Part shown: one piece after another, positions 3,001 to 25,511 of the stretch
Layout of the letters: the number at the start of each line of letters is the position of its first letter
Numbering within the stretch: the stretch's first letter is position 1
The notes under the pieces: model-generated
Database searches by the model: none
What the model was told of the DNA's origin: nothing
What the model saw: only the letters and a program-made list of their open reading frames with translations
NCBI GenBank assembly: GCA_020055645.1
Contig: CM034546.1
Span: 116,114,375 to 116,178,374, forward strand
DNA from: Tomocerus qinae
Taxonomy: Eukaryota > Arthropoda > Collembola > Entomobryomorpha > Tomoceridae
Direction of reading: 5' to 3'
Length of the DNA stretch: 64,000 nt
Made by a program: the position numbers and the translations under genes

Positions 3001-6000
3001 AATTGAATCAGCTACATTCAGCTACTTTAAATCAACTGGGGAATAAAGAGGCAGCGAGCCTATAAAAATTTATCGCCATTAGCATTAGAGTTAGAGTTGA
3101 AATTATCATTAGCATTGACCTTCTAAGTTGTTACTTTCATTTCTGAACCACTGCTATTTTTCTCCTTCCTTTATTCGTTAGCCTTGAGCTATCGGGAAAT
3201 CGCCATTATTCCTTATTTTCTGTGATTCATTTTCTGCTACATGATATTCTCTAACGAAATAATCAAATTCATTATTATATTGCTCAGTCCACCCACAACG
3301 GATCCCATTTCTTAGTCTGCGTCATCTCCATCTTCTCAGGAGAATTCTTTTCTATTCAAAGTCAAGGCTTACAATATACTACATGAGAATCATAATCATT
3401 ATGATTATATTATTATCCATTTTCCACAATTTAGATAAATTGAATTTTAATTAACTGATATTTGTGCCCTATATGATCTATGTCGTTTGTAATATCCAAT
3501 AAAAATCAAGATTTTACCGTAAGTTAGATTCCCTACTCCAATAAGGTTTGTTCATAAACCAATTTACAATTCATAGGTGTTTTAATGTGTGTAAAACATC
3601 ATCATAATACTTTTTCTATAATTTAGATAAATTAATTGTAGAATAATAACATAATCCTACATCACTAATGCCACCAGGATGGCTGCGATATTTGTATTGC
3701 GCACATGGCAGTTATAATATTTACTTCTACTAGTCTTGAATATGTAGAATATAGTTTTGAATATGTAGTTATAGAGCATACAGTATATTTTCCAAAATTG
3801 GTTTAATATTAATTTAAAATTATTTAGATCATGCAAACTATTGATATTGTATATTTCATGAATTTAAATAGTCCCGGACAGAAAAAAAGCGTTAATATTT
3901 CAAGGCAATTTTTTCATATACATACATTTGAAAATGTGCGAGTGGTAAGAATTAATATGGAATAGTTACATGAAATATGCTGGAGAATGTCGCCCGAAGT
4001 AAATGGATGTTAGGATGTTGATCTTCATGCGCTGCATAAGTATCAGCGTGTGCTGTACTCGTTGTGATGGAGCATTGATGGTGGATTTGGGCTGGCTTTC
4101 CCAATGCTCTGGAGCAAAAAAACTGGTACGAGTAGGAGTTTGTGCCGTTGAAATGGCAAATGATATCGTTGCTCTCGGATGTTGCTCCTCAAGTCGTTGG
4201 ATTACATTCTGTTGGAACGAAAAGATACATTATTTTTATTTACTACAGATTCTGTTGCTACTTTATATTACATTTAACTACGTTTTAATTGTTGCTTTGA
4301 CTCAAATGCATCCACTTCATTTTCGTATGCTAGATCAGTATTTATTACTCAGAGTTGGCAATAAAACTATAATAGTAGTTCCACTATAGACAGGTATAAT
4401 ATTAGTATATGCAAGAGGGAAGAGTTTAGTTTCATTCAATTTGTTGGTGATGAACAGGAGTACTTTAATGTACTTAACCTGAATGATTACAGATAAACAT
4501 TATTTTATTACAGCGGTTTATTTGGTGTTAAGCGGAGATCTTAAATGTGCTTATGGGTCGTTTGAAATGATCGTAATGTTTTAATGGGCTTTGGCTTCTT
4601 TTCTCAAACAGGAAACTTCGGTGTAAATCTAAAAGCCCATATGTTACTTGATTAGTGTTTATTAAGCACAGCTATAACTTGGCAGTATTTTACGAACCAG
4701 AGTTTTGCATCTGTGTTTGACATACCCAAATGTGTTTTACGTGTAATTATTTTGTTTTTAAAGACCATCACATAAAATATGTCTACAGAGAAACGATTTC
4801 CAATTAAGTATCATTTTTTTCATGACATTGTTCGCCAGATGATACTTTTCATTCTACAGAAAAATCTAAAGTGCACTACTATGTAGTTACAAGAGTGTAG
4901 TAGAAGTGTTTTTTAGTTCTCACAAATAAATAGGCTATCAAGATGGTTGTGCATAATTCATAACATTTGATCTTGAGATCAATTTAGTAAGCTATAAAAT
5001 GTTTAAATATTCAACCAAGTCTCTAATGAGAAATTTCCTGAAGAAATTAGTTATCCAATATTTTATGTGAGGATGGTAGTTAATTTACATAACATGGCAT
5101 TATAAATTTGTTTGAGAAGCGGAAATAATGGGTTTTAGATAGTATCTGCACTAGACTGAGTATAGAAAGACTTGGAAAAGATGTAACAATGTATAAGGAA
5201 TAGGTACATGAACAATAATTACGAGTCTCGTTGTTTACTTTACTATAATGGTACGGATATGTAATTTAGTTTTACTGATATGGATGTAGTGGAGATAGAA
5301 TTATATTCTGTAACAATATAATATTCGTGTGGTGTTACTACATAGATAGACAATGCAAGAGGTGAGTGAGAGTATCTTGGTAGGTATATAGTTGTTCATT
5401 TCTTATCAAATTGCATTAGTACATAGGTATTATAGCTACTACTGCGAAGTCTAGAAGGGATGTGTTAGAGTGTGGTGTGGGTTAAATTTTTCAGGTTATG
5501 GAGTGAGAGCAAGTTATTTAGTTAAGCGAATGAATCAGTATTTTTAAAGAGAAGAATAAAAAGAGGAAAAATGTAGATCGAAAAACTGTTAAGCTGCTTA
5601 TTGCTACGGATTGGCTACTTACTTAGTGAGCAGTGTGCTGTGAATATTAGAATGTAGTTGTGAGCTGTAATAATATACGCATTAATATCCATTGTTATAG
5701 GTATTATATTAGAAAACATGGTGTTTCATAGAACGTTAGTATGCTGATAGTCCCATAAAATGCACAGGCAGATTGGTTTTGTGGTTGTACGCAGGTACTT
5801 GTATAATTTATTGAGGACTTGACAGAATATTAAGGATCTTATGTGCTTGTGAGTTACATTAGCATTAGTGGAGAGCAGAAAGGTACGAAAGGCAAAGTCA
5901 ATTAATAGGAGAATAGAAATGTATAGTAGGTAATACCAACATCATGTATAGTAAATATATGTATTATGAATAATGGATTTAGTTGAAACACTTGCCGTAT

Positions 6001-22554: not shown

Positions 22555-23345
22555 GAGTCCCTGAGGTGGTTTTACTTACATTTATGCATCCCATCCTATA
22601 GCTACTCAGACTATCCCATTCTATACAATAGCCTCCTATTGCACCAAAAGTAATTTGCATTCAGGGTTCCAAACCCCGATTTTTTCATCTTTTCACACAC
22701 CTTACAAATTCACATCCTCAAAAATACACAACCAACTTCAAATTAATATATAAACTGTTAAACCAATCAAAATACTATTTTGAGGCTCAGGAACTATAAA
22801 CAGAATTGCCAGAGACATTTCTACAACTACAAAATTTTAAGATTAACTCTAATGACCTTTTTATTGCATATATTCCTCTTCTAGGCTAATGGTGGATAGT
22901 AGCTTATGACTCCATTTGGTGAGATAAGCAGAGGAAAAGTAATATACGAGATTCATGCATTACTTTCCCACTGCCTGCACTACCTACCTACTTCTTCTGC
23001 CTTCTGTCAGAAAGAAATCAAGGGAAAGTGACGAACAACTTGGGAGGGTGACCTCTCTGTCTTACCACTTTCCAACTCTCAAAAATTTTCTTTTCCCCTT
23101 CTAATGCAATTTTGAGTACTCATCGTAGATATTTTCATACATATATATGGCTAAATAAATAGAACGAATAAACTTGACAGAGATACAACATAATAAATGC
23201 AATGCATCACAAAACACAATACAATGAAGTACTGATACAAATTTTCCTATTTAAGTACAGATATAACGCACACTGGACTAGAACATCTGTAATTTATAGA
23301 GGTAAACTATATACGTTGAACCACTATAATTGGAGATTATGCGAG

Positions 23346-23408
23346 CCCCGCCCGTAGGGCGGGGTGAAGCATAATCAGAATTATATGAGTCTTCCGAATT
23401 CGGAAGAC
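23346..23408. repeat. GC-rich hairpin and 20-bp palindrome in the DIRS 3' extension
   Basis: CCCCGCCC (23346-23353), loop GTA, GGGCGGGG (23357-23364) forms a perfect 8-bp stem. GTCTTCCGAATTCGGAAGAC (23389-23408) is a perfect 20-bp palindrome. Both recur inside the ICR (about 23607-23669) because that region is the complement of this one. The GC content stands out sharply from the AT-rich surroundings. Confidence 0.85.
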
Positions 23409-23549
23409 ATCACTGGTTACTTCGTAGTACGTCACTCTACGTACTGGAAAGAGCCTATATTCAAAGCCTCATGCTCACGCATGAGCAAAAGAGACTTTGC
23501 TCACACACTACTCCCAAGCCACCATGCAGCCGCTCAGGAATACCTCATT
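23407..23549. repeat. 3' inverted terminal repeat of the DIRS element
   Basis: This is the partner of the 143-base repeat at 25043-25185. Its outer side carries an extension (23325-23406) different from that of the 5' end, which is characteristic of DIRS ends. The segment 23550-23600 separates it from the internal complementary region. Confidence 0.92.
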
Positions 23550-23600
23550 ATTTTAAACTTCCGAGACGAGGAAAAAGGAAATGGGGGTGGGAAGGCGGGC

Positions 23601-23734
23601 AGTGATGTCTTCCGAATTCGGAAGACTCATATAATTCTGATTATGCTTCACCCCGCCCTACGGGCGGGGCTCGCATAATCTCCAATTATACTTCGTCTTC
23701 CTCTTTCTACATACATCACTGGTTACTTCGTAGT
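23601..23734. repeat. internal complementary region (ICR) of the DIRS element
   Basis: Bases 23601-23690 are the exact reverse complement of the outer 90 bases of the 3' end (23325-23414). Bases 23683-23734 are the exact reverse complement of the outer 52 bases of the 5' end (25164-25215). The two halves overlap by eight bases, CAATTATA at 23683-23690, which is the sequence shared by both element ends. The ICR therefore equals the complement of the two termini joined end to end. In the DIRS replication model this region templates completion and circularisation of the element. Confidence 0.92.
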
Positions 23735-23802
23735 TGTTCAAAGCAACCGAGGCGAGGAATAAATTCGACAACTTAATCGAAACCATAAAATCAAAATAAT
23801 CA

Positions 23803-23808
23803 TTTATT
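23803..23808 (-). terminator. polyadenylation signal candidate of the DIRS transcript
   Basis: AATAAA on the - strand lies 45 bases after the recombinase stop and before the ICR. It could end a transcript of the recombinase frame. A replication-competent DIRS RNA would have to read past it into the 3' repeat, so its use is uncertain. Confidence 0.35.
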
Positions 23809-23852
23809 TCAATAATGTATACATTTAATTGGTAAGGTAATATTTGGCATTG

Positions 23853-24434
23853 TTAAGTTCCCGACAATACACCCAACGCAAATTCTGCTTTAGGTTGAAT
23901 AGATTTATTATAGTGTCTTGCGAATGTTTTTGATCCCATTGACCAACCCGCACATTTAAAAATGGAATCTATAGCCACCCCTTTAACCGCAGCTTTAGAT
24001 GTCGACGAATGTCGAAAACTGTGGGATTTAAAAACTTGGGTATCTACTCCAGCCATTTCTAAAACTTCGCACAACCAACGGCTTATTGTTTGAGTAGTAA
24101 CAGCTTTATGTGGACGTGTCAAACTTAACAATAATGCCTCACATTTGCGAATATTTTTTGTTCTATCAATATAACATTTCAACGTATCCACTACACATAA
24201 TTTATTATTAATTTGGTAGGGTGGTAAAACTAATACAACATTTGGCTTCTTAATATGAAAAGTCTTCAACTGTTTTGTAATAACAATTTCAACATTCTCT
24301 CCATATACAATATTGTCAATAGAAATTGCAGATAATGTCTGCACTCTCTGTGCTGTTACTAATGATATTAATGCCACTAGCTTCAAAATTATCATCACTA
24401 CTGCAGTTTTCCACCAATTCGTTCTGATATTCAT
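23853..24434 (-). CDS. DIRS tyrosine recombinase, N-terminally truncated, catalytic core retained
   Basis: The 193-residue frame from the ATG at 24434 resembles the C-terminal catalytic domain of DIRS1-family tyrosine recombinases, which integrate circular element DNA. Numbering from one codon further upstream (24437), the first catalytic Arg is R31 in VTAQRVQTLS, a Lys candidate is K55, the HxxR box is H139-S-F-R142, Trp is W165 in CAGWSMGSKTF and the nucleophile is Y176 in ARHYNK. PHKAVTTQTISRWL is also typical of the family. Family similarity starts only around residue 19, so the N-terminal core-binding domain is gone. It overlaps the ORF1 fragment by about 120 bases in another frame, which fits an out-of-frame deletion joint. 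An AATAAA lies 45 bases after the stop. Whether a functional protein is made is unknown. Confidence 0.85.
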   Translation of the reverse strand: MNIRTNWWKTAVVMIILKLVALISLVTAQRVQTLSAISIDNIVYGENVEIVITKQLKTFHIKKPNVVLVLPPYQINNKLCVVDTLKCYIDRTKNIRKCEALLLSLTRPHKAVTTQTISRWLCEVLEMAGVDTQVFKSHSFRHSSTSKAAVKGVAIDSIFKCAGWSMGSKTFARHYNKSIQPKAEFALGVLSGT

Positions 24435-24657
24435 CACTACATTGTGCCATTTGTGAAACTGCTTCCGTTAAATCTTTTATTGCTGTGGGCATCGACTCAA
24501 GAGATTTAATTAAATGTGCATGTTCAGAGACTGTTTTTGATAATGTTGCTAATTGATAAATGAACGAGCCTTCTTGATTTATCGCCCCTCCTTTATCGGC
24601 TTCCTCTTTCTGGGACACCTTTAATGGTTTGCCCGAGATTGGAATGCCGCTGATCAT
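24316..24657 (-). pseudogene. DIRS ORF1 (Gag-like) N-terminal fragment, truncated
   Basis: The 113-residue frame begins MISGIPISGKPLKVSQ. It is the first frame after the 5' terminal repeat, where DIRS elements carry ORF1. The middle (ATLSKTVSEHAHLIKSLES) could form a short helical or coiled segment, and an acidic stretch (SDEYQNELVENCSSDD) follows. The last 20-30 residues appear to be translated out of frame from recombinase sequence beyond the deletion joint, so the natural C-terminus is lost. Assignment rests on position and polarity rather than on recognised motifs; it could instead be an unrelated small ORF of this element family. Confidence 0.5.
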
Positions 24658-25042
24658 TTGTCTGTTAATTTTTTAAAAATTGAATTTATTTTTTGATCAA
24701 TGAGCTACAATGTTACTGTAAATTAACTATCCCAGCGGAATAGTTGACAGCCATAACTGATTCTCCTTGTTGCACAAGGGAATACTGTATCTACGGACTC
24801 AATGGCCGGCTGTATTTTTTATTATAAAACATGCATCCACACAAAAAATAGACTTAATAGACATAGTCGATCATCTTTCCTAAAAATCTGCCTTCCCCCT
24901 TATAAATTAGGTCAACTTACCCACGAGGTTCCTCTTTGGTCTTTTCCGGAATGGTCTTCTCTCTACCCATGGAATCACAAAAATTTTGGGAAATCCGGAG
25001 GGTATATTTTCTAGGTCTGCTCTCCAGCACTATAGAAATAAC

Positions 25043-25185
25043 AATGAGGTATTCCTGAGCGGCTGCATGGTGGCTTGGGAGTAGTGTGTGAGCAAAGTCT
25101 CTTTTGCTCATGCGTGAGCATGAGGCTTTGAATATAGGCTCTTTCCAGTACGTAGAGTGACGTACTACGAAGTAACCAGTGATGT
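25043..25185. repeat. 5' inverted terminal repeat of the DIRS element
   Basis: This 143-base stretch is the reverse complement of 23407-23549 with no mismatch or gap found by eye. It lies upstream of ORF1 in element orientation. The outer extension, 25186-25215, is not part of the ITR pair but is matched by the internal complementary region. Confidence 0.92.
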
Positions 25186-25511
25186 ATGTAGAAAGAGGAA
25201 GACGAAGTATAATTGTAATAAGGAACTGTAATTGCCCAGATATGGATATGTGAAATTAATTACTAAATTTTACGTAAATTGTTTTCGGGTACTATACGGT
25301 TTCTTTGATTTTCGTCAAAGCAAAAGGCATACAAGGTTTTCAATTGAAATGTAGTGTAATGTCTAATTAAATGGTGATCTATGTTTAGTATTTCCTAAAG
25401 TAGTAAAGTTTAAACAATTATTTTTAGTAATTTCTTTTTGAGTTTTGTTTGTATTTTGAAGTGATATTTCGTTGTGGTTGGTTGGAATGATTTTGAAGTG
25501 AAATGGTAAAT

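Follow-up and report, generated by a model that had tools for sequence, protein, structure and literature searches.

The locus described here raises the question of what kind of element lies near a Hox gene of the collembolan Tomocerus qinae, and whether its presence and its clean ends are out of the ordinary. The window, i.e., the whole stretch of DNA analysed, is 64 kb long (C1:116114375-116178374); the genome searched comprises 334 Mb in 115 contigs. A sequence-only reading had placed a complete DIRS-type element at window positions 23325..25215, and these coordinates are right to the base. They take in the element plus 8 bp common to both ends. This 8-bp sharing overstates the core, as the part shared across copies is AAT. 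Because AAT alone is common to both ends across copies, the element proper extends from core to core, 23328..25213, and is 1,886 bp long with the minus strand as coding strand. It is very probably a recent non-autonomous copy of a DIRS1-like retrotransposon, derived from a longer element of the type of copy L021 by a 3.1-kb loss, with its cis sequences kept. Those retained are both inverted terminal repeats (ITRs), the right extension (rE), the internal complementary region (ICR) and the AAT core.

DIRS ends are described here as divergent ITR, conserved ITR and right extension, the terms used in the available part of PMC3266345. The conserved ITRs, 143 nt each, are found at 23407..23549 (coding 3′ side) and 25043..25185 (coding 5′ side), both on the minus strand; they are inverted and match at 143/143 positions. 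The outer end 23325-23415 is the complement of the right ICR (23600..23690, minus strand; 91/91), and the outer end 25164-25215 is the complement of the left ICR (23683..23734, minus strand; 52/52). In the total ICR of 135 nt (23600-23734) the complements of the left and right window ends are joined, with an overlap of 8 bp, CAATTATA, at 23683-23690. The repeats, outer ends and ICR are thus as free of mismatches as had been claimed. A chance origin of the three pairs is excluded, as a scan of the 64-kb window for inverted repeats (at least 28 nt, seed 14) yields one further pair, of 34 nt and 76% identity. On the coding 5′ side the divergent ITR (25186..25213, minus strand) has no extension beyond it and ends with the AAT core at 25211..25213. 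On the coding 3′ side the divergent ITR (23377..23406, minus strand) is followed outward by the rE stem-loop (23335..23376, minus strand), which is marked by its fold, its covariation and its absence at the other end, and by the AAT core at 23328..23330, the presumed crossover point. The two ends do differ, as had been noted, but what had been called two different outer extensions is, in published terms, a divergent ITR with a right extension at one end and a divergent ITR alone at the other (PMC3266345, available part). A second palindrome, CTTCCGAATTCGGAAG, lies within the divergent ITR on the rE side at 23391-23406; it folds in families A-C, delimited below, and is not kept in families D and E.

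Two coding remnants are present. The C-terminal part of a tyrosine recombinase (YR) is found at 23853..24380 on the minus strand (PF00589, E 1.6e-9). In an alignment of 14 rows this fragment keeps R41, H149, R152 and Y186 (stop-to-stop open reading frame numbering), which we take to be the catalytic residues. The fragment, which lacks the N-terminal domain, would not be expected to work. A gag N-terminal remnant of ∼92 codons, which then runs out of frame, occupies 24381..24657 on the minus strand; its residues, the second excepted, are those of the N-terminus of the 248-amino-acid open reading frame of L021.

A search of the genome with the left 410 bp of the element gave at least 68 matches from 27 candidates. 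Five places belong to its own family: the window copy, L021, L022, L023 and L030. L021 (C2:52584951-52589943) is a full-length relative of the kind for which a search with the two ends had been proposed. It is 4,992 bp long and has open reading frames of 248 and 149 amino acids at the gag position, 620 amino acids (pol) and 313 amino acids (YR). The gene order gag-pol-YR-ICR-ITR is taken from this copy. Domain matches are to RVT_1 (E 2.2e-21) and Phage_integrase (E 6.4e-9); RNase H-type matches and a Dam match (E 0.005) are under the Pfam curated cut-offs. Dam-type matches with E up to 0.1 are found in 4 of 5 pol proteins, the best, at E 0.005, being under the curated cut-off.

L021 and the window copy have the same ends and ICR, and their identity in the 1.9 kb common to them is 98.5-99.0% (positions 4-1059 of the window copy against 952-2007 of L021, 99.0%; 1055-1890 against 5109-5944, 98.5%). 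The size gap of 3,106 bp (4,992 minus 1,886) falls at 24380/24381, and the junction at 24379..24380 has an AG common to both sides, as judged by eye. The extra 3,106 bp of L021 hold the 3′ part of gag, pol and the YR N-terminus; the window copy has lost all of pol, most of gag and the N-terminus of the recombinase. As the deleted pol region carries the reverse transcriptase (RT) and the RNase H-type matches, which are absent from the window copy, the latter is a derivative, non-autonomous member of its family. "Complete" therefore describes its ends, but not its interior, which lacks 3.1 kb of coding DNA.

The remaining members of the family are small. L022 (3922-4129, 208 bp) and L023 (4417-4615, 199 bp) are recent fragments with a single end, of 98.6 and 100% identity to the window copy. 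In both, the right-extension end is retained at AATT, and their breakpoints, which lie within the ITR, are no more than 9 bp apart. In L030 (∼4407-4475) a 52-bp coding 5′ end is joined to ∼20 bp that by eye resemble the recombinase region, and it is apparently a tiny deletion chimera. A common cause of the one-ended fragments L022, L023 and L030 was looked for and none was found. Rearrangements are seen in other copies as well. The left end of L029 (4484-4619) continues into the reverse complement of the ITR-ICR spacer, a stretch identical to L024 over 136 bp, as if the end-to-ICR segment had been inverted or rearranged. At L028 (3098-4327) internally repetitive DNA interrupts a 6.8-kb DIRS copy, and the same DNA flanks L030.

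Several other origins can be weighed against a DIRS1-like derivative. PAT, Ngaro, Crypton and DIRS elements all share a tyrosine recombinase with the residues R..HxxR..Y. The presence of these residues in the window copy, albeit in the C-terminal part only, would be expected of any of them. PAT and Ngaro elements are defined by split direct repeats, which were not found: direct repeats of at least 20 nt in L021 reach 20-24 nt only, and the longest direct repeat in the window copy (40 nt, 83%) comes from the likeness of the divergent ITR to the left ICR. Both copies have instead inverted ITRs plus an ICR. A Crypton, having a recombinase without RT, is ruled out by the RT of L021. A PAT/Ngaro-type or Crypton origin is thus very improbable, and the arrangement described earlier as DIRS1-type is upheld: inverted ITRs with divergent and conserved parts, and two ICRs near the coding 3′ end that overlap at the circle junction. 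Large inverted repeats can also be produced by mis-assembly, and a palindrome of this origin, or one derived from the host, was considered. It has next to no probability, as the same parts recur in independent copies whose flanks differ; these independent insertions elsewhere in the genome refute an assembly or host palindrome. A further alternative concerns the order of events within the preferred reading and does not exclude it, namely that a full-length element inserted and then lost 3.1 kb in place. The junction was found in a single copy, the genome search having detected no second one (counts being lower bounds), and the 2-bp overlap at the junction fits ordinary end joining. Nothing decisive stands against loss in place, and intact ends are compatible with either order; its chances are a little short of even.

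The DIRS1-like reading can be examined further through the relation of the ends to the ICR. In 12 complete copies, which form five families, A-E, set by mutual identity, the outermost 80 nt at one end and the outermost 50 nt at the opposite end were aligned with the copy's own ICR. One difference, a gap, was detected in 1,555 aligned positions. In two further copies of family D, L032 and L033, one substitution was found in 258 positions, giving 2 differences in 1,813 for all 14 copies. When copies of different families are compared (at most six pairs per comparison), these ends show 6-21 differences in 80 positions and 6-18 in 50. The window copy and L021 are told apart by a single-base indel, TTTCT vs TTCT, and in either copy the form found in the 5′ end is also that of the left ICR. 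The near-identity within copies, as against 6-21 differences per 80 nt between families, shows a joint renewal of ends and ICR, as in the published model. Any recent copy should therefore have clean ends. They are common to most copies examined and no peculiarity of this insertion. A recent insertion is nevertheless supported: with 0 mismatches in the three pairs (286 positions), the window insertion looks young. Outside families A-E there are 60 pol places, and 20 of these were also sampled at their 3′ ends (1.2 kb each). No end/ICR pair was found in three of them; L049 and L056 have another inverted repeat and L060 has none.

The boundaries of the relatives, which if located elsewhere would have refuted the earlier reading, have the same core. 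Of 14 copies, 13 have AAT at each end as well as in the ICR, and the exception, L033, has ATT at the left end; the left end of another copy, L047, is without the core. The resemblance of the flanks to the circle junction was measured as the summed match run beyond AAT. With 12 copies, and 6,177 AAT sites in nearby DNA as the null, the run is 17 on the left (null 4.95, P 0.00085) and 10 on the right (null 4.70, P 0.031). Adding L032 and L033 gives 19 on the left (null 5.78, P 0.0007) and 10 on the right (null 5.53, P 0.064); L034, for which no right end was found, is in neither test. In view of the last value one side alone is firm, and the likeness of the target to the circle junction appears reliable on the left and marginal on the right. 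The base before AAT is T in 8 of 12 copies (background 0.285), and the base after it is T in 9 of 12 (background 0.315). As every junction here reads TAATT, a plain preference for TAATT explains the flank likeness equally well. No target duplication longer than the short core is seen.

The cycle most likely to lie behind these features is the following. The transcript of the element would be reverse transcribed. The ICR, which contains the joined ends in complementary form, would serve to complete the outer ends that are missing, and a DNA circle would result. A tyrosine recombinase provided by an intact relative would then cross the circle junction with a genomic AAT, or better TAATT, so that each end is left with AAT and no longer duplication arises. 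The pre-insertion site would have been a single TATAATTG-like site, without target duplication. The transcript, circle and enzyme steps are drawn from the published DIRS model; comparison of the copies itself provides the anatomy, the deletion relative to L021, the concerted ends and ICR, the AAT ends and the one-sided target resemblance.

The setting of the element had been considered unusual. An abd-A-like homeobox exon does begin at ∼45,595 on the plus strand, 20 kb downstream of the element, and to this extent the Hox setting proposed earlier is right; the exon is presumably that of abd-A. A motif search of the 64-kb window detected no YPWM or MSSKF exon. The rarity attributed to the insertion is not borne out. 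The pol protein of L021 as query gave 71 scored places of 608 candidates in the genome. Most of these are 40-70% identical to L021, and 57 of the 71 are free of stops within the match. Judged by these matches the genome is rich in DIRS elements, which makes a DIRS insertion less surprising than first thought. A single insertion is ordinary for this genome, and the genome as a whole represents a rich natural experiment for DIRS elements.

The part of the finding most worth following is the right-extension stem-loop. Its outer stem is formed by 23335-23342 and 23369-23376 and its inner stem by 23346-23353 and 23357-23364; across families the outer stem has 8 bp and the inner 6-8 bp, placed 4 nt inside the AAT core. 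Folded as RNA, the 80-nt end of the coding strand displays two hairpins (-37.1 kcal/mol, z -7.07). In 12 of 12 copies the right extension has z values of -4.5 to -8.2, and its ICR complement folds too, whereas the other end is without a fold (z -1.5 to 0.64, 12 of 12 copies). For the outermost 52 nt, z is below -2 in 28 of 32 copies (median -5.1), copies of the same family not being independent; the exceptions are L051, L052, L055 and L061. The next three segments reach this level in 7, 0 and 2 of the 32 copies. Covariation is seen as well. Among 18 copies (8 distinct rows), changes on both sides occur in 7 of 23 pairs, one of them in the neighbouring palindrome; the shuffled mean is 1.6, and 0 of 500 shuffles reach the observed value. 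With 10 representatives and only the outer and inner stems, 97.4% of cells are paired and double changes are present in 9 of 16 pairs (shuffled 3.6, 0 of 500; slid 0-3). That the fold might be found in all DIRS ends of the genome was only partly borne out. In a second group of 11 AT-rich ends (A4) the RNAalifold consensus has no pairs, and 7 of the 11 have z below -2 individually.

Sequence that varies while pairing stays fits a folded single strand better than a double-stranded protein site, and on this pattern the right extension probably works as a folded single strand. The main rival is that the stem-loop is not selected and that its arms correct each other. In quasi-palindrome correction, template switching between the arms yields paired changes, and the high proportion of paired cells in the first group, 96.3% in the outer and 98.7% in the inner stem, is what such correction would leave. 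However, both the sequence of the outer stem and its position next to the core are preserved in the 10 representatives, and the adjoining palindrome of the divergent ITR is not kept paired (helix 1, 69.6% of cells). Arm correction is thus possible but rather unlikely. It is put forward only tentatively that DIRS right extensions serve as a signal in the form of a folded single strand, with pairing kept across families, and that this signal may act in ICR RNA or cDNA. The simplest site of action would be the ICR of the RNA, where the fold may pause the reverse transcriptase or signal the strand transfer that closes the circle. A bolder reading is that it may be a recombination site in single-stranded cDNA that is recognised by shape, by analogy with integron attC sites, which are recombination sites recognised in this way.

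What appears to be new here, from the alignments, is the two-part stem-loop of the right extension and its covariation. No description of a stem-loop in the DIRS right extension was found in the literature searched (DIRS with stem-loop or hairpin). In the available part of PMC5633606 there is no mention of one for the Dictyostelium DIRS-1, and "hairpin" refers solely to Skipper-1; the word is absent from the available parts of PMC3266345 and PMC9210276. A conserved rE stem-loop could help explain how DIRS elements copy themselves. Experimental proof of how RT and tyrosine recombinase cooperate in making and integrating the circle is incomplete (PMC5633606, available part). Parts of the 1985 replication model are testable by comparison alone, i.e., the joint change of ends and ICR, the AAT core, the likeness of targets to the circle junction on at least one side and the conserved rE fold.

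Relatives outside this genome were also sought. The YR protein and the pol alignment (A2), each searched against viral and genome contigs, gave pattern matches with no confirmed relative. The best hit of a PDB sequence search has E 0.49, and Rfam and tRNA scans of the 64-kb window found nothing. Comparison with described elements is more informative. The founding element, DIRS-1 of Dictyostelium, likewise has inverted repeats, an ICR, a tyrosine recombinase and a circle intermediate, but is centromeric, unlike the element here (PMC5633606, available part). The 28 elements in Table 3 of PMC3266345, in the part available, are 3,793-6,283 bp long, and the window copy differs from them in having 1.9 kb and no pol. 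ATT/AAT core entries in the same table agree with the AAT core found here; the 8-bp sharing at the window insertion exceeds the 3 bp of the published model. DpuDIRS3 of Daphnia and BmDIRS1 of Bombyx also have divergent and conserved ITRs, a right extension only, and an ICR pair overlapping at the circle junction (PMC3266345, available part). The dimensions of DpuDIRS3, 24/170/50 with ICRs of 38-89, are close to ∼28-30/143/∼46-49 and ICRs of 52-91 in the window copy (PMC3266345, same part).
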